Shown one piece after another: positions 10,630 through 20,906 of a stretch of 64,000 nt of DNA. Where the stretch lies: contig JAFIFU010000001.1 in assembly GCA_020831885.1 (NCBI GenBank), positions 186,001 to 250,000 on the forward strand, read 5' to 3'. How positions within the stretch are numbered: the stretch's first letter is position 1; every line of letters begins with the position of its first letter. The DNA comes from Ectothiorhodospiraceae bacterium (GTDB lineage Bacteria > Pseudomonadota > Gammaproteobacteria > Nitrococcales > Aquisalimonadaceae). The notes under the pieces are model-generated. The model ran no database searches, was not told the DNA's origin, and was given only the letters and a program-made list of their open reading frames with translations. The position numbers and the translations under genes were made by a program.

Positions 10630-12879
10630 TCAGTGTTCGTTTAGCAACAGCCGAACCCCGGCACCCGTCGTTTGGTGACGCACGGTGCCGATGATCCGGG
10701 CCTCACGGTATCCCAGTGCCTGGAGGGCATGGAGGCATGCCTCGGCGCGGTCCGCAGGCACGCCGGCCAGCAACCCGCCGGCTGTCTGTGGGTCGAACAA
10801 CAGCGGATAGGCCGGGTGTTCCATCGCCTTTTCCCGGTCGTGCAGCCAGGCTGAATTGCGTGTGTTCGCCTCGTGCAGGGAACTGAGCAGCCCGCTTCCG
10901 CTGGTTTCAAGGGCGCCATCAAGCCAGGGCAGCGCGTCCAGCCGGAGCTCTGCGGTCAGCCCTGTCTTCCGCGTCATCTCCAGCAGATGCCCCAGCAGGC
11001 CGAAGCCGGTGACGTCGGTGCAGGCGGTGGCACCGTGCCCCCGCAGGCATTGGGCAGCCAGCCGGCTGGACTGGCGCATGCAGTTCAGCGCCGCATCGAT
11101 CCATCGGCCCCGGGCCCGCAACTGCGCATGCGCCGCCAGCAGCGTGCCCGTTCCCAGCGGTTTGGTGAGAATGAGCGCATCGCCCGCGCCGAGCCCCTGC
11201 TTGCGCAGCAGGGCCTCCGGCCGGTCCTCTGCCAAACCGTTTACGGCAAAGCCCAGCGCCAGTTCCCGGCCTTCACCGCTGTGGCCGCCGATGAGGGCGC
11301 AATCCGCCTCGTTCAGCACCTCCAGTGCGCCACTCATCATCTGCAACAGCGTATCCGCGACCTTGTCCGGTGGACCATGGGGCACGGTGGCCACGGCACT
11401 TGCGGAATGGGGTTCGGCGCCCATGGCGTAGATGTCCCCAAGCGCATGGTTGGCCGTGATCTGGCCGAAGGTGAAGGGATCGTGGATGAAGGCACGGAAG
11501 AAGTCCACCGTCTGCAGCAGGAGTCGGTCCGGCGGCACCCGAAGCGCCGCGGCATCATCGCTTTCCGCCAAGGCGGCGATGACGCCGGAGCGCTGCACCG
11601 GCTTCAACTGGTGCAGCACGTACCGCAACGCATCCTCACCGACCTTGGCGCCGCAGCCACCGCAGCGCATCTCCTCTGGGTGCTCCCCGGGGCCTGATGC
11701 GCCTGCTGTCATGCGGCCCGGGACGGTGGGGTCGAAGCGGGCCATAAAACGCCGGTCGATGTGGTCCTTCCAGCGCCAGACCCACCGCCCGGCCAGCATC
11801 AAGCGGCCCCGGGACGCCACCGCATAACGGTCGCCGGTGCTGATCAGGGCAAGCCACTTCCGTTGTGGTCGGTATCGGCGGACCACCCGTCCCTGGATCA
11901 GCCGCCGCAGATTGTCCGCCAGGACCCGGCCCTGGCGCACCGCGAACACGCCGGCCTTCTCCCGGGGATGTCCCTCCATGCTGGCCACATCGCCCGCGGC
12001 GAATATCCGGGGGTCGGAGAGGGATTGCAGGGTGTCGGTGACGCGGATGAAACCGTGCGCATCCAGTTGCAATCCCGTTTGCCGCAGCCAGTCCGCACCA
12101 CCGGCATGGGTCACCCAGACGATTTCGTCGGCGGCCAGATGAAAGCCGTTGCCGGCCCGCAGACATCCGGACGACACCCGTTCCACCCGCGCCTGGCAGT
12201 GCAGGACAATGCCACGTTGTTGCAGGATCCGCCGGAAGTGCCGGCGGACGGCCGCGTTATGGCTTGGGAGGATGTCGGTTTCGGCACTGAACAGATGTAC
12301 TTCCAACTGGTCAGGGGCGTGCCCCCGGGTGATCAACTCCTGCCGCAAACGGTATTGCATGGCCAGGGCCAGCTCCACACCACCGGCCCCGGCGCCCACG
12401 ACGGCGATGCGAATCGGCCCGGTGTGTTGCTGTACGCGCTGCAACAGGGTCTGCCAGCTCTGGTTGAACCGATGGATGGGCTTGACCGGAATAACGTGTC
12501 GCGCGGCGCCCGGTACCTGGCTCACCCGGGGGGCGGAGCCGGTATTGATGGATGCCAGGTCGTAGGGGACCGGCGGGCGGCCGCGGCACAGGATGCTGCC
12601 GGCCTTCCGGTCCAGTCCCACCGCCTCGGCACGGTAGAACCTCGCGCCGGCGAACTCGGCCAGGCGGCTGAGATCGATGTGGACGTCGTCGTACGTGTAG
12701 TGGCCGGCAATGTAGCCGGGCAGCATGCCGGAATAGGGGGTGTGCGTATCCCGGCATATCAGGGTCAGGCGCACTCCGGGCATGGGCCGCATGCCGAAAG
12801 CGCGCAATACCTGAACGTGACTGTGGCCGCCGCCCACCAGCACGATGTCCTTTTCCACCGGATGATCGGACGCCTGCAT
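10630..12879 (-). CDS. selD: NADH-dehydrogenase-like oxidoreductase fused to selenide water dikinase
   Basis: A 749-residue fusion. Residues 1 to about 390 form an FAD/NAD(P) oxidoreductase of the Ndh-2 type, with VGGGHSHVQVL near the start, [14 protein letters not shown] as the second dinucleotide site, and FAAGDVASM. From about 400 to the end it is SelD, which makes selenophosphate from selenide and ATP. The key motif RCGGCGAK holds Cys409 and Lys412, equivalent to E. coli Cys17 and Lys20. The active site uses Cys, not Sec. Such fusions are known in other bacteria and are thought to couple redox chemistry to selenium supply (inference). tRNA-Sec lies 60 bp upstream. Confidence 0.95.
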   Translation of the reverse strand: MQASDHPVEKDIVLVGGGHSHVQVLRAFGMRPMPGVRLTLICRDTHTPYSGMLPGYIAGHYTYDDVHIDLSRLAEFAGARFYRAEAVGLDRKAGSILCRGRPPVPYDLASINTGSAPRVSQVPGAARHVIPVKPIHRFNQSWQTLLQRVQQHTGPIRIAVVGAGAGGVELALAMQYRLRQELITRGHAPDQLEVHLFSAETDILPSHNAAVRRHFRRILQQRGIVLHCQARVERVSSGCLRAGNGFHLAADEIVWVTHAGGADWLRQTGLQLDAHGFIRVTDTLQSLSDPRIFAAGDVASMEGHPREKAGVFAVRQGRVLADNLRRLIQGRVVRRYRPQRKWLALISTGDRYAVASRGRLMLAGRWVWRWKDHIDRRFMARFDPTVPGRMTAGASGPGEHPEEMRCGGCGAKVGEDALRYVLHQLKPVQRSGVIAALAESDDAAALRVPPDRLLLQTVDFFRAFIHDPFTFGQITANHALGDIYAMGAEPHSASAVATVPHGPPDKVADTLLQMMSGALEVLNEADCALIGGHSGEGRELALGFAVNGLAEDRPEALLRKQGLGAGDALILTKPLGTGTLLAAHAQLRARGRWIDAALNCMRQSSRLAAQCLRGHGATACTDVTGFGLLGHLLEMTRKTGLTAELRLDALPWLDGALETSGSGLLSSLHEANTRNSAWLHDREKAMEHPAYPLLFDPQTAGGLLAGVPADRAEACLHALQALGYREARIIGTVRHQTTGAGVRLLLNEH

Positions 12880-12939: not shown

Positions 12940-13035
12940 TGGCGGAAGGGGGTGGGAGTCGAACCCACCAGACGCGCCTGGCGCGTCTCACCGGATTTGA
13001 AGTCCGGGCGCTCCACCGGGAAGCGATCCCCTTCC
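12940..13035 (-). tRNA. selC: tRNA-Sec (anticodon UCA)
   Basis: The minus-strand product is 96 nt including an encoded CCA. It has the 8-bp acceptor stem GGAAGGGG/CCCCTTCC, the anticodon loop ACTTCAAA with UCA, a long variable arm (GACGCGCC/GGCGCGTC) and the T arm GGTTCGACTCC. The long acceptor and variable arms and the UCA anticodon are diagnostic of bacterial selenocysteine tRNA. It lies between selB and the selD fusion, so it may be cut from the same transcript. No clear promoter of its own was seen. Confidence 0.97.
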
Positions 13036-13145: not shown

Positions 13146-15041
13146 TCAGCGCAGGCCGCGCCGTTCGCCGTCGAAACGGGTGATGCCCAGGCGGTCCAGG
13201 TGCTCCAGGACCTGGATGGTCAGATTGCGGCCGATGCCGCTGCGGTCCCGGTAACCGGCCGCATCGAACAGCCTATCCGGGGATTCCTCGGCCAGTTCTC
13301 TGGCCAGATCCGCCAGCGTCTCCACAGTTTCTGGCAGAAAATAGCGGTTGGGCGCAACCCGTTCCAGATAGCCCAGGCGGCTCAGTGACTGCAGTCGCTC
13401 CATCAGCGCCTGGCGCTCCAGTCCCAGTTGATCGGCAAGCTCGCCGACCAGGGGCGGCCGCAGTCCGGCGCCGCGTAGTGCGTGGGTGACCGCCTCCAAC
13501 AGGGCCGCATCCGCGGTTTCCAGGCGTGGCCGGTGATCGGGCAGGCGCAGGTTGAAGCCCTGCCGCACCAGGAGCGACTTCTCCAGCAGTGCCCGGATCG
13601 CCGCCCGGACCAGGGCGCCGGGGAGCGTCCGTCCCAGACGCTCGGCCAGAGCGGATTCGCCAGGGCCGACACTGGCGGGGTCCAGCGCGTGCCAGCGGGC
13701 TACCGCGTTCAGCACCTCCCTCTGGACCTCCTGCCAGCGGTTTTCCGTGATCAGCAACGGCCCCTCCCGGGTGGCAATCCGCAAGCCGGGTGTTGCGTCG
13801 GCGAGCGCCGCTGCCTGTTCCGGCGTGAGGTTCCTGGTGCGGACGAAGGCCGGCAGAAAAATGCCCGTTGGGCTGAGTTCCAGCAGCGAGCCAAGCGCCC
13901 GGGCGTGGTCCGCGTCGGCCAGTGCCTCCAGTAGGGACAGCCGCTCCGGTCGACCGCGCCCGCGACGGGGAGGGGTCGGATCGATCACCTTGCCGCCGCC
14001 CAGGGTCCGCCAGGCGGACTGATCCCGGATGATGAAACGGTCACCATGCAGGCCATGGATCGGCCGCTCCAGCACCAGCTGTGCCAGGCCGCGCTCACCG
14101 ACGCCCAGGCTGTGGCGGCCCAGCAGTGCAACCCTTGCGGTGACATCAGCCGCACCCAGGTGCAGATGGACCGGTGTCCAGTGTTTCAGGGCGCGCTGCT
14201 CGGACGGCAGCAGCCCAAGCTCCACGTCCAGTCGCCGGGTGACCAGTTCCGCGGGCTCGGCCACGACCCAGTCGCCGCGACGGATCGCCTCCCGGTCCAA
14301 CCGGCTGCCGGACAGGTTCAGGGCGCAGCGTTCGCCGGCGACCACCTGGTCCCGCCGCTGTCCCTGTCCTCGCAAATCCCGCACGCGGGCGGGTATGCCG
14401 CCGGGGACCACGCGCAGATGCTCGTCCTTTCGGACGCTACCGTCGAATACCGTGCCGGTGACCACAAGACCCGCCCCATCCACGGTGAAGCAGCGGTCCA
14501 CCGCCAGGCGGAAATTGCCGTCGGCCTTCCTCCAGGGGAGCGTTTCGCTGCACCGGGTCAGATGCCGTTTCAGTGCATCCATCCCGGCTCCGGTCTGCGC
14601 GGAGACAGGAAAAACAGGCGCACCCGTCAGGCAGGTGCCTTCCACCAGCTCCGGGATCCCTTCCGTCACCTGCAGCAACCGTTCCCCACTGACCCGATCC
14701 GTCTTGCTCACCACCACGGCGCCATGACGCAGGCCGAGCAGATGGAGTATCGCCAGATGCTCCCGGGTCTGGGGCATGGGCCCGTCATCGGCGGCGATCA
14801 CCAGCAGCACGAAATCCACGGCGGCCACACCGGCCAGCATGTTACGGATGAAGCGTTCGTGTCCCGGGACGTCCACGAAGCCGATGCGCCGCAGCGACGG
14901 GCCGTCCATGTAGGCGAATCCCAGGTCGATGGTCAGCCCGCGACGCTTCTCTTCCTCCGTCCGATCCGTGTCGACGCCTGTCAGCGCCCGCACCAGCGCG
15001 GTCTTGCCGTGATCCACATGGCCTGCGGTTGCCACGATCAT
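13146..15041 (-). CDS. selB: Selenocysteine-specific elongation factor
   Basis: A 631-residue GTPase that carries Sec-tRNA-Sec to the ribosome at UGA codons next to a SECIS hairpin. GTP-binding motifs are GHVDHGKT (7-14), [14 protein letters not shown] and VSKTD. EF-Tu-like domains II and III follow, and the C-terminal third is a series of winged helices that in known SelB bind the SECIS RNA. The ATG at 15041 overlaps the selA stop as ATGA. Length is close to E. coli SelB (614). It is the expected partner of selC and of the two UGA-containing genes upstream. Confidence 0.96.
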
Positions 15042-16420
15042 GGTGCCAAGGGCTCCGTGAACTGCGCCCGGAACGTCTTCTCGTCTTCCAGGCAGCGCAG
15101 ATCCAGCAGCACCGCACCACTCCTGATGCGGCCGATCACGGGGACCGGGCGTCGGCGGAGGGTTTCCGCCAGGCTCAGCGCCGACGTGGCTGCCGGGCGC
15201 AGGCGCAGGGCGACGCTGGGCAGCAGGTCCACCGGCAGCGACCCACTCCCTATCTGGCTCTGCACGGAAATCACATCCACCCGCCCGGCGGCACCCAGCC
15301 AGTGGGCGAGCACCGGTTGCAGCCGTTCCGCCAGCGTCCGGATCTCGTCGGTGCCCCGCGTCAGCAGCCGCAGTGCCGGTACACGCTCCGCCAGGTGGTC
15401 CGGATCGGCACACAGGCGCAGCACCGCCTCCAGGGCCGCCAGGGTAAGCTTGTCGCAGCGCATGGCGCGCTTCATCGGGTTCCGCCGGATGCGGCCGATC
15501 AGATCCGCACGGCCGGCGATGATGCCCGCCTGTGGCCCTCCCAGCAGTTTGTCCCCGCTGAAGGTGACCAGGTCGGCGCCACGGGTGAGGGTGTCCATCG
15601 GGGTGGGCTCCGCCGGCAGGCCGAAGCGGGTCAGGTCGGCGAGGGAGCCGCTCCCGAGATCCACCAGAAACGGCACGCCCTGCTTCCGGCATAAATCGGC
15701 CAGGGCGGATTCATCCGCCTCGGCGGTGAATCCCTGGACCTGGTAGTTGCTGGTGTGTGCCTTGAGGACCAGGGCGGGCTTCACCGTGTCCATGGCCTCG
15801 GCGAAGTCATGGACGTGGGTGCGGTTGGTGGTGCCCACTTCCTGCAGCCGGCAGCCCGCGCGGCGCATAATGTCCGGTAGCCGGAATGAGCCGCCGATCT
15901 CGATCAGCTCACCCCGGGAGACCAGCACACGGCGTCGCAGGGCCAGGCTGTTCAGGGCCAGCAGGACGGCGGCGGCGTTGTTGTTGACCACGGTTGCCGC
16001 CTCCGCACCGGTCAGCCGGCACAGCCAGCGCTCCACGTGGACATCCCGGTCGCCGCGCCTGCCCCGTTCCAGATCGTATTCCAGGTTCGAGGCTCCGGCG
16101 GCGATCCGGGTCATCGCGGCGATTGCTTCCGGGGGCAGGGGGGCGCGGCCGAGATTGGTATGCAGCACGGTGCCGGTGAGATTGAACACCGGCTTCAGGG
16201 ATGGGGATATCTGTGCCTGCAAGGCGGTGGTGATGCCATCTGTGATGGCGGTATCGGTGCAGGGGCGCTGGCCGCGGCGGCACTCTTCCAGGGTTCTGCG
16301 CACGGCCTCCACGGTCAGGGGGCGGCCATGGGTCTGCAGGAGCGCCGCCACCACCGGCCAGGCCAGTATACGGTCCACCGACGGCGGCCGGGGATACGTC
16401 GACGGGTTGCGGGAGCTCAT
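15038..16420 (-). CDS. selA: L-seryl-tRNA(Sec) selenium transferase
   Basis: A 460-residue PLP enzyme that converts Ser-tRNA-Sec to Sec-tRNA-Sec using selenophosphate. The PLP lysine is Lys291 in SGDKLLGGPQAG, near E. coli Lys295. NLTGTVLHTNLGRAP, EYDLERGRRGDR and VNNNAAAVLL match conserved SelA segments. The N-terminal tRNA-binding region (about 1-70) is present, so this is the long bacterial form. It begins 132 bp after the UGSC gene in the same direction and overlaps selB by 4 bp. A 7-bp stem-loop lies in the gap before it. Confidence 0.97.
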   Translation of the reverse strand: MSSRNPSTYPRPPSVDRILAWPVVAALLQTHGRPLTVEAVRRTLEECRRGQRPCTDTAITDGITTALQAQISPSLKPVFNLTGTVLHTNLGRAPLPPEAIAAMTRIAAGASNLEYDLERGRRGDRDVHVERWLCRLTGAEAATVVNNNAAAVLLALNSLALRRRVLVSRGELIEIGGSFRLPDIMRRAGCRLQEVGTTNRTHVHDFAEAMDTVKPALVLKAHTSNYQVQGFTAEADESALADLCRKQGVPFLVDLGSGSLADLTRFGLPAEPTPMDTLTRGADLVTFSGDKLLGGPQAGIIAGRADLIGRIRRNPMKRAMRCDKLTLAALEAVLRLCADPDHLAERVPALRLLTRGTDEIRTLAERLQPVLAHWLGAAGRVDVISVQSQIGSGSLPVDLLPSVALRLRPAATSALSLAETLRRRPVPVIGRIRSGAVLLDLRCLEDEKTFRAQFTEPLAP

Positions 16421-16552: not shown

Positions 16553-17077
16553 TCAGGTGGCGCGCAGGGCACCCAGGATGGCATCAAGCGCGTCATCGGC
16601 CAACTGCCGCATCTCCGCGTCGGTGCGGTCCTGAATCGGATGGGCGACAAACACCATCGCCGGATCGAAACCCAGCGAACGGCTCTGCATCTCTGCGGCC
16701 TGGACGAACTCCGTTGATGCAACGCCAACTCCGGGTATGCCTCGACCTTCCAGGTCTGCGATGTCATGCATACAGCACGACGTGCAGGAGCCTCAGTCGG
16801 CCAGACCTTCCACCACCAGATCGCATTCCGCGGCAATCTGCTGGCGCAGGGCCGTGGGGGCAACCCGGGTGAACGTGGGTTTCCGGTAGCGCCGTACCTG
16901 AATGCCCCGGGACTGCAGCAAGGCGTCGACACGGTCTAGGAACACGTCGCCGCGGGCCTTGGAGATGTCCAGCAGGCCGACGGTGAGCCCATCCAGGCTC
17001 GCCGGTCGCGCCAGCCGCTCCCGGGCCGCCGGGGACCGTTCCGACGTCGGGTCCAGCAGGTGTAGATCTGCGTTCAT
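16553..17077 (-). CDS. UGSC-motif selenoprotein (in-frame UGA read as Sec95)
   Basis: A 174-residue protein if the TGA at 16793-16795 is read as selenocysteine. The frame before (94 residues, ending VVEGLAD) and after (GSCTSCCMHDIADLEGRG) runs on without a shift, giving Sec-Gly-Ser-Cys. UGSC proteins were described earlier from ocean metagenome surveys of selenoproteins, and their function is unknown. A SECIS-type hairpin follows the UGA (16756-16787). The gene ends in a normal TGA at 16553-16555. Its ATG overlaps the stop of the thioredoxin-fusion gene (ATGA). The Sec and neighbouring cysteines point to a thiol/selenol redox role (inference). Confidence 0.88.
16756..16787 (-). promoter_or_regulatory. 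bSECIS hairpin of the UGSC gene
   Basis: Counting from the base after UGA, nt 6-10 pair with 32 and 34-37, and nt 12-18 (GUCGUGC) pair with 24-30 (GCAUGAC) including one G-U pair. The apical loop is UGUAU at 19-23, with G as its second base. The position, 18 nt from UGA, and the loop G fit the published bacterial SECIS rules. Folding was done by eye. Confidence 0.7.
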
Positions 17078-18540
17078 CCAGTGATCTCCCTGGTAACGGG
17101 CGATGAGCCGACCGGGCCGGAGGCGGCCCAGCCGGCGATCACCGCGGAAAACAGACCGGCGGTGCCGCCGGCCCGAACGATCAGCAACCCCCCGGGGCGG
17201 AACTTGGGAATCCTCTGGCCAGCGGCGCTGGCCGGCAGGCCTTCCGCGATGCCGTCAGCCCCCGCCAGCAGTTCGTCGCCCGGCATGAGCAGTAAACGTT
17301 CCAGTTCTTCCCGTAGCCGCTGCCGCGACCAGCCGGCCTCGCTGAACACGCGATGATGCTCCGGCGATACCACGAGCGTGGCGTCGCCGGCCATGGCCAT
17401 CTTGGTGTTGTCCACCGCGCGCAGCGAGTTGGCGAAGCTGCGCGCCAGGGACTCCGGTGTGCGGGATTTCTGGTCCACGATGCCCTGCACACCCTCGCCG
17501 GCAAACAGCGTGACGGTGGACGCCTCGGGCGGAAAGCCCCGCTCCACGGACAGGGAGCCCCAGTCGCTGTCTTCTGCTTCCGCGAAACAGAACGTGTACT
17601 TGCCGGGGTTGCCCAGGGTGGCCCGGTCGATCTCGCCCGGGCGGCCGCCCCCCACATTGCGGATAACCAGTTGCAGTGCCCGGCCGATGGTTGCGTTGGC
17701 GCGGTTGCCCTGGCCCAGGGCATTGACCCCGGAGTTCATGCCGATGGCCCGGGTGATTGGCCCGTTCACGATCACCATCGGCCCGGCGAACATGGTGGTG
17801 CAAAGCAGGCCGTGCATGCCGAATTCCTCGGTCAGGGCCGCTTCCACGGCGGCGATGACCACAGGCAGGTATTCCGGTTTGCAGCCGGCCATCACGGCGT
17901 TGATGGCGACTTTCTCGACGGTGCAGGGAGCCAGATCCGGGGGTACCTCCCCCAGATTCTCGGATGGTGCGCGATGCGTGCCCTGGAGCATGCGGAGGAC
18001 CCGCTCCCGGGTTGGCGGCACAACCGGAAGACCGTCCGTCCAGCCCCGCTCGTAGCAGGCCTCCATCACGTCCTCGGCATCACCGAGATCGATCTCCCGC
18101 GAACGCAGCAGACTCCGGTCAAAGCGGGCGGCGAGCTTGTCCGCCATCCCCGGATCCTGGGTCTTCGAGCCGCAGCCAGGCCGCGTCTCCGGCAGCTCGG
18201 CGCCCAACGGTTGCTGGCCACTCAGTGTCTGCCAGTCGCCGCGATGCCATCCGTAGGTGCGTCCCACCTCCCGACCGTTCTCCACCCGGATCAGCGTGGG
18301 CACGATTTCCACGTCCAACTGCCAGGACGTTTCCAGGCTCGCATCATGAACGACCTTGGGCAGGCCGTTGCCGTAAGCGGGGTCGTCCTGACTGTACACC
18401 GTGAGTGGCAGCGGTCCGTCCGCCAGCTCGTGCAGCACGGGCTCGATCAGTGTGCAGGTGGGGCAATCGCGCTTGGCGATGACGATGAGGCCGTCGGGCA
18501 GGGCGGGCACGGGCGAATCCTCAGTGACAGGAGAAGACAT
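17074..18540 (-). CDS. Thioredoxin-fold domain fused to a large UGSC-associated domain
   Basis: A 488-residue protein of unknown function. Residues 1 to about 110 look thioredoxin-like: RDCPTCTLIEP near residue 26 gives the CxxC motif, and IVPTLI gives the cis-Pro loop. A linker with RPGCGSKTQ (a Cys-Gly-Ser) follows. The remaining 340 residues have the motifs TDGLPVVPPT, INAVMAGCKPEYLPVV, VIVNGPI, NSGVNALGQGNRANATIGRA and PGKYTFCFAE. They are Gly-rich and may bind a substrate or cofactor, but no enzyme class is evident. The gene overlaps the UGSC gene by ATGA and lies 90 bp after the GrdB-like gene, so the three probably act together. ATG 18540 is preferred over a TTG just upstream. Confidence 0.8.
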   Translation of the reverse strand: MSSPVTEDSPVPALPDGLIVIAKRDCPTCTLIEPVLHELADGPLPLTVYSQDDPAYGNGLPKVVHDASLETSWQLDVEIVPTLIRVENGREVGRTYGWHRGDWQTLSGQQPLGAELPETRPGCGSKTQDPGMADKLAARFDRSLLRSREIDLGDAEDVMEACYERGWTDGLPVVPPTRERVLRMLQGTHRAPSENLGEVPPDLAPCTVEKVAINAVMAGCKPEYLPVVIAAVEAALTEEFGMHGLLCTTMFAGPMVIVNGPITRAIGMNSGVNALGQGNRANATIGRALQLVIRNVGGGRPGEIDRATLGNPGKYTFCFAEAEDSDWGSLSVERGFPPEASTVTLFAGEGVQGIVDQKSRTPESLARSFANSLRAVDNTKMAMAGDATLVVSPEHHRVFSEAGWSRQRLREELERLLLMPGDELLAGADGIAEGLPASAAGQRIPKFRPGGLLIVRAGGTAGLFSAVIAGWAASGPVGSSPVTREITG

Positions 18541-18629
18541 CAATCAGAGCCTAGCATACGCCTGAAACGAAATGCATGGCCTGGCAGGGGCGGCCAATGC
18601 CACGGGGACAGGCTGTGGATCCGGGTGCG

Positions 18630-19844
18630 TCATAGACCGAGTCGCACCCGTTGCTCAGCGGGGATCAACTGGCCCCCGGCCACCGCGCGAAGTATCTTGT
18701 CGTCCGAGGCCATTGCCGTGGCCCGCAGGCGGATCAGCACCTGGGCCGCGGTGGTTGTGTCCCAGAACCAGTGCTGCAATTGACGACTGGAAGGCCGTCC
18801 CCCCATGGACGCGGCCTCCAGATACTGCGCCTTCAGGTCGTCCGCCGCCAGCCGCATGGCGATGGCCAGGCGCTGTTCCGGCATCGGGTTCTCCGGCACC
18901 GTGCCGCTGGCCATGGCACAGAGAAATTCGGTGATGCGCTCGGCAGGCAAGGCGCTGTTACCGACCGTGGTTCGCCCGCGGCTTGCCACCGCTTGCCGGT
19001 AAACAGGGGCGATGGCCTCCTGCTCGGCCGCAAGGGCATCCCGCAGGGAGGCCGGGTTCCTGGATCCGTTCGGTCCCGCCGGCAGCGCTGGCGGTTGCCA
19101 GGCCGGGTCATCGGCGAAGCCGGCGGCCTGCCGTGGGAAGTCCATGATCAAACCAGGCTCCCGAACCTGCTCCAGCAGTCCTAACGCCTGGCTTAGCACC
19201 AGCCGCTGGAACGCCCCGTCACCGGGTTCACCCAGAGGGCGACCCAGCTCGAAAGGCACCCACAGCGTACGGGGCGGCCGGATCCGCTCGCTGTGTGGCC
19301 GGAAAAGACTGATGCAGATCGTGGCGATGCCCGCTGACTCCAGGTAATGCCCCAGCGCGCTCACGGCGCGCGTGCAATGGGGTCAGACGGGGAGCAGGAC
19401 GGCTGCCGTCACCCCTTGATCGCGGAAGTCCCGGACCAGTTCCTCGGCGTGGGGTTGCATCAGTTCCGGGTCGGTTGCGCCCATGAAGCTGTAATGGGTG
19501 TCCGCGGCATTCCCGATCAGGTCCTGTTCCGCGAGTTCCCGCAGCCGCTGCCGTGGAAGCATGACTTCCACGTCCTGTTGGAAGCCGGTCCGATCGAAGT
19601 TGACCGAAACGTGCGTGATCAGCAGGTCTTCGTCCCCGGTCTCTTTCGCAATACTGCGGAAGTCTTTCGCATTCGGTTTGAAGGGCGGTTCCCCCCGCAC
19701 GCTCAAGCCCGCCGTGGAAACCAATGCGACGGTGTGCTGGAGCAAGGGCCGGGGCGGTACCAGGGCCGTGGACCCGAATGTCGGGCATGACAGCGCGAGC
19801 ATGTTCTCCCGCAGCACCGGGGGCAGATCGTCCAGTCGGGCCAT
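18630..19844 (-). CDS. GrdB-like selenoprotein (in-frame UGA read as Sec154)
   Basis: A 404-residue protein of the glycine/sarcosine/betaine/D-proline reductase selenoprotein B family if the TGA at 19383-19385 is decoded as Sec. The frame is uninterrupted on both sides: residues before end AAVLLPV, and the Sec is followed by PHCT, giving the UxxCT motif of the family. VALVSTAGL and SFMG are further family-like motifs. Known members cleave a C-N bond reductively through a Sec-bound intermediate; the substrate here is unknown. A GGAGG site precedes the ATG. A SECIS hairpin begins right after the UGA, and the gene ends in an ordinary TGA. Confidence 0.88.
19350..19382 (-). promoter_or_regulatory. 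bSECIS hairpin of the GrdB-like gene
   Basis: Immediately after UGA, nt 1-5 (CCCCA) pair with 29-33 (UGGGG), nt 8 pairs with 28, and nt 11-15 (CGCGC) pair with 23-27 (GCGCG). Unpaired UU and CA bulges lie on the 5' side. The apical loop is GCCGUGA (16-22) with G first. Distance and loop composition fit bacterial SECIS rules. Folding was done by eye. Confidence 0.7.
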
Positions 19845-19919: not shown

Positions 19920-20906
19920 TCAGCCGATGGTCTCGTCAATGACCAGCAGCGATTTGCCGATCGCCTTGCCTGACAGCGCGAACGCCAGCGCCTCCGTATG
20001 CCGATCAAAACCGAAACGACGCCCGATGGGCGGCCTCAGTTTTCCGGCAGAGACCCAGGATAACAGACGATCAATCATGTCATCCGCCGCATCGGGTTCA
20101 AGGATCTGCCCGAATTGCCGGGTGTCGACACCGATCAGGGCCGCGCCTTTGAGCAGGGGGAGATTGAGCCGCAATGCCGGAATGTCTCCGTGGGCGAAAC
20201 CGATCACCAGGTAGCGACCCCGCCATTTCAATGAACGGAATGCGGGCTCCATCAGCGGACCACAGACCGGATCGTAGACCACGTCAATGCCGTGGGGCGC
20301 TAGTTCCCTGAGCCGCTCCCGCCAACCATCCGGCTCCCGGTCCAGTACAGCGGCCGCCCCGGCTTCCCGGGCTGCCGTACGCTTCTCTTCCGTGGAGGCG
20401 ACGGCGATGACCCGCGCACCGAGCGCTCGGCCCACGTCCACCGCTGCCAGTCCGGTGCCGCCCGCGGCTCCCATCACCAGCACGGTTTCGCCGGATTCGA
20501 GGCTGCCTCGATCCATCAAGCCGTGCATGGCGGTCAGGTAGTTGCCTCGGAAGACGGCGGCTTGCGGGAGCGTCATCCCGTCAGGCAGCACCTTCACGTC
20601 CTTCGCCTCGGCGGCGGCGTACTGGGCGAAGCCGCCCTGAACGCTGGCCAGAACACGCATTCCCGGCCTCAGGCCGGTGACGCCGGGACCGATCGAGTCG
20701 ATGACGCCGGCAACCTCGCTGCCGGGTACGTGGGGAAGCGCGGGCTTCGTCTGGTATCGGCCCAAGGCGATCAAGGCGTCCACGTAACCGATACTGCAGT
20801 ATGCCACCCTGATCCGGACCTGACCGTCACCGGGTGCCGGTGTCGGCAGATCGACGACGCGGTACGCATCCAGGGCGTCCAGATTGTCCGCCTGAACAGC
20901 TTTCAT
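19920..20906 (-). CDS. NADPH:quinone reductase-like MDR oxidoreductase
   Basis: A 328-residue medium-chain dehydrogenase/reductase of the zinc-less quinone oxidoreductase / NDUFA-like group. The N-terminal GroES-like fold has HVPGSEVAGVI near residue 60, and the NAD(P) site is VLVMGAAGGTGLAAVDVGRALGA cut here as VMGAAGGTGLAA around residue 145. No structural or catalytic zinc cysteines are present. It lies 75 bp upstream of the GrdB-like gene in the same direction and inside the repeat-bordered block, so it may feed electrons to, or process a product of, the selenoprotein system (inference). Alternatively it is a general detoxification reductase. Confidence 0.85.
   Translation of the reverse strand: MKAVQADNLDALDAYRVVDLPTPAPGDGQVRIRVAYCSIGYVDALIALGRYQTKPALPHVPGSEVAGVIDSIGPGVTGLRPGMRVLASVQGGFAQYAAAEAKDVKVLPDGMTLPQAAVFRGNYLTAMHGLMDRGSLESGETVLVMGAAGGTGLAAVDVGRALGARVIAVASTEEKRTAAREAGAAAVLDREPDGWRERLRELAPHGIDVVYDPVCGPLMEPAFRSLKWRGRYLVIGFAHGDIPALRLNLPLLKGAALIGVDTRQFGQILEPDAADDMIDRLLSWVSAGKLRPPIGRRFGFDRHTEALAFALSGKAIGKSLLVIDETIG

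Follow-up and report, generated by a model that had tools for sequence, protein, structure and literature searches.

Gene, reading frame and Sec codon

GrdB- and PrdB-type selenoproteins are textbook parts of the Stickland fermentation carried out by strict anaerobes. A gene of this type in the window analysed here, a 64,000-nucleotide stretch of an Ectothiorhodospiraceae genome, raises the question of what such a protein does in a bacterium that is apparently aerobic, as a preliminary description of the locus had supposed and as the five heme-copper oxidases (COX1-type) of the genome (4.13 Mb, 99.99% complete) bear out. The gene and the elements within it are as follows.

18630..19844, minus strand: PrdB/GrdB-superfamily selenoprotein, 404 amino acids (translation, family matches, AlphaFold2, profile-profile comparison, tree)
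19383..19385, minus strand: in-frame TGA, read as Sec154 of the UPHC (UxxC) motif (TGA in 80 of 80 relatives)
19348..19385, minus strand: SECIS-like hairpin starting at the UGA (hairpin search, synonymous-codon test)

The gene runs from an ATG at 19844 to a terminal TGA at 18630-18632. Standard ORF calling yields two ORFs of 153 and 244 amino acids, while reading the single internal TGA (codon 154, context LPVUPHCTRAV) as Sec gives one frame of 404 residues. A single-sequence scan of the genome collection found no relatives and an alignment-based scan was needed, which returned 234 relatives from 84,980 species genomes; the best 80 were kept. These 80 are full length, with 41-72% identity to the window protein, and cover essentially all of it on both sides of the TGA, so that the joined halves do align to a family. 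All 80 carry TGA at the Sec column, as do five extra paralogues within the same loci, and the loss of this column in close relatives that the preliminary description had named as a possible refutation is not seen. The carriers among these best 80 of 234 span Alpha- and Gammaproteobacteria, Desulfobacterota, Chloroflexota and other groups; searches at the level of class, phylum and genome collection gave no full-length Cys member among the same best 80 loci. Cys157 of the UPHC motif is invariant in the alignment of the long-family relatives. Two full-length long-family members lie close together in loci L026, L083, L087, L088 and L099, both with TGA, and in L088 and L099 they stand in tandem.

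Of 81 genes, 80 have a hairpin of the bacterial SECIS type just 3' of the UGA, whereas at the twelve control offsets 9-39 do; in the window gene its apical loop, CGUGA, is placed 20-24 nt after the first base of the UGA. Because the genes are related and have residues in common, synonymous codon use was also tested, in 45 non-redundant genes with a GC3 of 0.35-0.91. Codons 158-161 (ACG CGC GCC GTG), which lie 12-23 nt after the UGA and within the SECIS-like hairpin, show the four highest single-codon excesses among the 88 conserved columns, and the codon bias at this position is therefore due to selection on the RNA and not on the protein.

The genes for Sec insertion lie downstream of the PrdB-like gene on the same strand, together with a second selenoprotein gene, of the UGSC family, that is described below.

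15038..16420, minus strand: selA, L-seryl-tRNA(Sec) selenium transferase (family matches)
13146..15044, minus strand: selB, Sec-specific elongation factor (family matches; start inferred at [14 protein letters not shown])
12940..13035, minus strand: tRNA-Sec, anticodon TCA
10630..12879, minus strand: Ndh-SelD fusion, selenophosphate synthetase in a Cys form, CGGC (family matches)

SelB was sought in 20 carrier genomes and scored over the cut-off in 19, the exception being a 1.3 Mb Chloroflexota bin, and selA or selB lies within 10 kb in about 25 of the 80 loci. The 153- and 244-residue ORFs of the standard call would also be expected if UGA154 were an ordinary stop, with the region made up of a pair of short genes or of a pseudogene with a nonsense codon. 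Against this stand the TGA and the coding sequence either side of it in 80 of 80 relatives, codon constraint at the level of a SECIS element, the hairpin itself and the adjoining Sec machinery, and we have rejected the idea as having practically no chance of being correct. Judged by these features of its sequence the window gene is a true selenoprotein with Sec at position 154, as first described.

Family, fold and missing partners

In profile-profile comparison residues 13-230 match PrdB at 99.9% and the C-terminal half of GrdF at 98.9% (hhalign), while the C-terminal ~160 residues (~245-404), which are helical, gave no match. The best NCBIfam match is to TIGR04483, PrdB, with 94.7 bits against an equivalog cut-off of 300, followed by GrdH, GrdF and GrdB (TIGR01917, TIGR01918, NF040794, NF040795) with 27.9-38.1 bits against cut-offs of 65.45-800. 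The Pfam family GRDB (PF07355; cut-off 22 bits) scores 21.7 for the whole protein and 23.4 in a genome scan; all of 52 long-family members match PF07355 at E<=0.1 and also match TIGR04483. Residues H78, P97, U/C154, C157, E169, R192 and G201 are common to the long family, the short family, PrdB and GrdF, and D336 and W359 are invariant in the C-terminal domain of the long family. In a maximum-likelihood tree the long family forms a single clade (100/100) that is distinct from PrdB, GrdF and a family of ~310-residue proteins. The term 'GrdB-like' thus holds as far as the superfamily is concerned, but the nearest characterized protein is PrdB (94.7 bits, against about 28-38 for the Grd proteins), and the phylogeny sets the joined protein in a clade of its own with an extra C-terminal domain. 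From alignment and tree, then, the window protein is a member of a widespread and separate clade of the GrdB/PrdB superfamily.

The AlphaFold2 model is confident (pLDDT 92.5) and, as regards the structure prediction at the Sec site that had been called for, places U154 between the strand 147-151 and the helix 155-170, at the N-terminus of the latter. A fold search of the PDB with the whole model gave no Foldseek match at E<=0.001, the best hits being generic alpha/beta folds (best Z 7.5), and sequence searches of the PDB found neither PrdB nor the long family among the solved structures.

Genome-wide searches with PF09338 (GrdE/G/I, PrdA) and PF04723 (GrdA) found neither in six carrier genomes: the window genome, its congener, two other gammaproteobacteria, Enhydrobacter aerosaccus and Reyranella soli. 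The positive controls all matched (Peptoclostridium records for PF09338 and PF04723, Ligilactobacillus and Terrisporobacter records for PF09338). That no GrdA partner is visible near the gene is hereby extended to the whole genome, and GrdE/PrdA is absent likewise. Membership of the D-proline or glycine reductases was accordingly rejected, the scores lying below the family cut-offs and GrdA and GrdE/PrdA being absent; with the protein also falling in a separate clade, it is, as predicted from these comparisons, not a glycine or D-proline reductase of the known kind. The earlier conclusion that the reaction must differ follows for pyruvoyl-dependent reactions, but it says nothing about the reaction that actually takes place.

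The adjoining genes and the UGSC selenoprotein

Three further genes flank the PrdB-like gene on the same strand.

19920..20906, minus strand: quinone oxidoreductase-like (MDR) gene, 75 bp upstream of the selenoprotein gene
17074..18543, minus strand: 489-residue protein with a thioredoxin-like N-terminus (CPTC) and a ~370-residue conserved partner of UGSC proteins
16553..17077, minus strand: UGSC-family selenoprotein, 174 amino acids, Sec95 (TGA at 16793-16795; NF041046)

Clustering of the 80 loci and Pfam scanning of the immediate same-strand neighbours revealed no widely recurring neighbour beyond the sel genes; LysR regulators, glyoxalase-like proteins and CoA-transferases are each neighbours in only 2-4 loci. 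An apparent recurrence of the quinone oxidoreductase was rejected once the loci were checked, as it came from an ORF antisense to the quinone-oxidoreductase gene. The absence of a conserved non-sel neighbour fits a stand-alone enzyme.

The UGSC protein scores 156 bits with NF041046 (cut-off 125) and its gene also has a hairpin; the 489-residue protein has no match in Pfam or NCBIfam. For the partner domain there is no clear fold match in the PDB, a match to class I fumarate hydratase being weak and non-significant. The PrdB-like gene is followed after an 86-bp gap by the overlapping genes for the thioredoxin-fused protein and the UGSC protein, and the congener has the same arrangement. Both proteins accompany the PrdB-like gene in four of the 80 loci (L021, L022, L041 and L067), three of which (L022, L041, L067) are alphaproteobacterial, the remaining one being the congener. 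Elsewhere UGSC forms a pair with a ~350-residue homologue of the fused part, the PrdB-like gene not being in view, as is the case in many aerobes and haloarchaea; such pairs sometimes lie beside trxA and/or trxB (Arthrobacter, Roseovarius). The ~370-residue partner adjoined UGSC in every plasmid locus read, from bacteria and haloarchaea, and in several of these loci trxA/trxB, TRAP transporters, CoA-transferases or phosphosulfolactate synthase lie alongside.

The motif UGSCTSC of the UGSC protein resembles UGTCTRC of GrdB, and its profile matches PrdB at 90.6% and GrdF at 92.0% over 45-72 columns; against the long family it reaches 21-34%, a weak match. On account of the motif and the profile matches UGSC may be a distant relative of GrdB and PrdB rather than the thioredoxin fold supposed in 2008. 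The PrdB-like protein, the thioredoxin-fused partner and UGSC could be imagined as one thioredoxin-driven reductase unit with two selenoproteins, for which the shared strand, the short gap and gene overlap, the same order in the congener, the linkage in four loci of different lineages and the likeness of UGSCTSC to UGTCTRC (profile 92%) would speak. The 4 of 80 count, the frequent occurrence of UGSC and its partner with no PrdB-like gene in view, and the fact that the linkage may reflect mere clustering of sel genes, all argue against such a unit, which we regard as decidedly unlikely.

A proposed reaction, its rivals and known systems

In the mechanism usually put forward for glycine and D-proline reductases, the amine forms a Schiff base with a carbonyl (pyruvoyl) group, Sec then attacks the alpha carbon and a thiol resolves the selenoether (PMC10298544; PMC13188914). 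With the pyruvoyl subunit absent here, this mode of activation would not be open to an amino-acid substrate, and a clade that forms its own group and has no partner proteins probably performs a reduction different from those of the known amino-acid reductases. We favour, with a probability of roughly 0.6, the view that the gene encodes a true selenoprotein, that it belongs to a long (~400-residue) and stand-alone clade within the GrdB/PrdB superfamily, and that it works with no pyruvoyl group. The selenolate of Sec154, at the helix N-terminus, would attack a small electrophilic substrate that has not been activated as a Schiff base, Cys157 would resolve the Se-substrate adduct to leave a selenenylsulfide, from which a thioredoxin-like dithiol donor would regenerate the Sec154/Cys157 pair. 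Glycine reductase is reduced by thioredoxin (PMC10298544), which is hence a plausible donor for the window protein by analogy; the thioredoxin fusion in the neighbouring gene, which accompanies the family in only 4 of 80 loci, suggests the same. The description of the protein as a partner-less, dithiol-dependent selenol reductase is our own reading of these data.

The main rival reading is a general antioxidant selenol enzyme, a peroxidase or a disulfide or sulfoxide reductase, for which the GrdB fold would be a mere scaffold. A UxxC motif at the start of a helix, as placed by the AlphaFold2 model, would suit disulfide or peroxide reduction equally well; the hosts are aerobic, the gene stands alone among varied neighbours, and thiol oxidoreductases make up most seawater selenoproteins (PMC1088965). 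The retention over long branches of the non-redox residues H78, E169, R192 and G201 goes beyond the needs of a scaffold, and the extra C-terminal domain has invariant residues of its own, D336 and W359, so that on balance this reading appears rather unlikely. An adduct reductase with a C-N, C-S or C-halogen bond as its target is favoured over a plain disulfide or peroxide reductase, since the core of the superfamily is kept. Less probable again, and in our view very unlikely, is the function that the name used in ocean surveys would imply, that of a D-proline reductase (PrdB) working in an aerobe. In its favour are the top family match to TIGR04483, found in 52 of 52 members, the UxxC motif and the literature label 'proline reductase' (PMC2398784; PMC9402790). 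This match falls far below the 300-bit equivalog cut-off, and PrdA (PF09338), present in the control records, is absent from the six carriers; the separate clade, the extra domain and UPxCTR in place of UGTCHR likewise point away from it.

The partner-less reductase preferred here may be a common one in the sea. In the Sargasso Sea survey of 2005 'PrdB' ranked third in abundance among known selenoprotein families, with 42 genes (PMC1088965); it accounted for 235 Sec sequences in GOS in 2008 (PMC2398784) and, as 'PrdB'/proline reductase, contributed 6.4% of the selenoprotein genes in the marine survey of 2021 (PMC9402790). The ocean proteins resemble the long clade in belonging to pfam07355, in the UxxC motif, in being mainly Sec forms and in coming from aerobic marine bacteria; the passages of these surveys that were consulted contain no PrdA/GrdE test and no separate long clade, and keep the proline-reductase name. 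Nor was a paper found that sets the long clade apart or remarks on a missing partner. A GrdB-like selenoprotein in an aerobe is thus not the first of its kind and is in part anticipated, 'PrdB' UxxC proteins having been reported as abundant in oxic seawater since 2005. SAR116 and other marine carriers fall inside the long clade, and ocean 'PrdB' may therefore well be the same protein. It is a tentative proposal, with the odds somewhat against it, that the long clade represents a selenoenzyme of aerobic bacteria in its own right, pyruvoyl-free and with a new substrate and chemistry, and that ocean 'proline reductase' is largely this enzyme misnamed. A large Sec-keeping clade in aerobic-capable bacteria that lack the substrate-activating partner implies that the Sec half works alone or with another partner. 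If carriers at large lack PrdA, as the six tested do, the label 'proline reductase' is unsupported, and a common selenium-dependent reaction of oxic water then lacks an assigned function. The cultured carriers Enhydrobacter aerosaccus and Reyranella soli make the clade accessible to experiment.

Compared with known systems, the window protein is homologous to PrdB (TIGR04483) over residues ~32-237, with Sec in UxxC at nearly the same position and with R159 added to the common residues H78, P97, C157, E169 and R192. It differs in having UPxCTR where PrdB has UGTCHR, a further 160-residue C-terminal domain, no PrdA, an aerobic-capable host and a separate clade. With GrdB, GrdF and GrdH (PF07355, TIGR01917/01918) it shares homology to their C-terminal half and the motif U-x-x-C-T-R (UGTCTRC there, UPHCTRA here), whereas the GrdB N-terminal half is lacking, all subfamily scores fall under the cut-offs and the window genome has neither GrdA nor GrdE/G/I. 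The ~310-residue proteins listed by NCBI as 'glycine/sarcosine/betaine reductase selenoprotein B family protein' (e.g. WP_035710215.1 and WP_207415257.1) share the superfamily, the stand-alone state and the occurrence in aerobes, but are mostly Cys forms (CPVCHQ), have no long C-terminal domain and form a separate clade. Several of these Cys-family genes of aerobes (L118-L126) are closely followed by a reading frame for a CaiB/BaiF-like CoA-transferase. Two other gammaproteobacterial genomes carry a shorter Sec relative (VAMUPVCHQT; L014 in G365, L015 in G143), which in G143 directly adjoins an Ndh-SelD fusion. FarB of Cloacibacillus, a GrdB-like Sec protein for which a role in fluoroacetate reduction has been proposed (PMC10838667), provides a precedent, as this GrdB-type Sec enzyme is supposed to need no pyruvoyl Schiff base; unlike the window protein, it has the GrdE homologue FarE, is believed to supply GrdA/GrdC and belongs to an anaerobic rumen bacterium.
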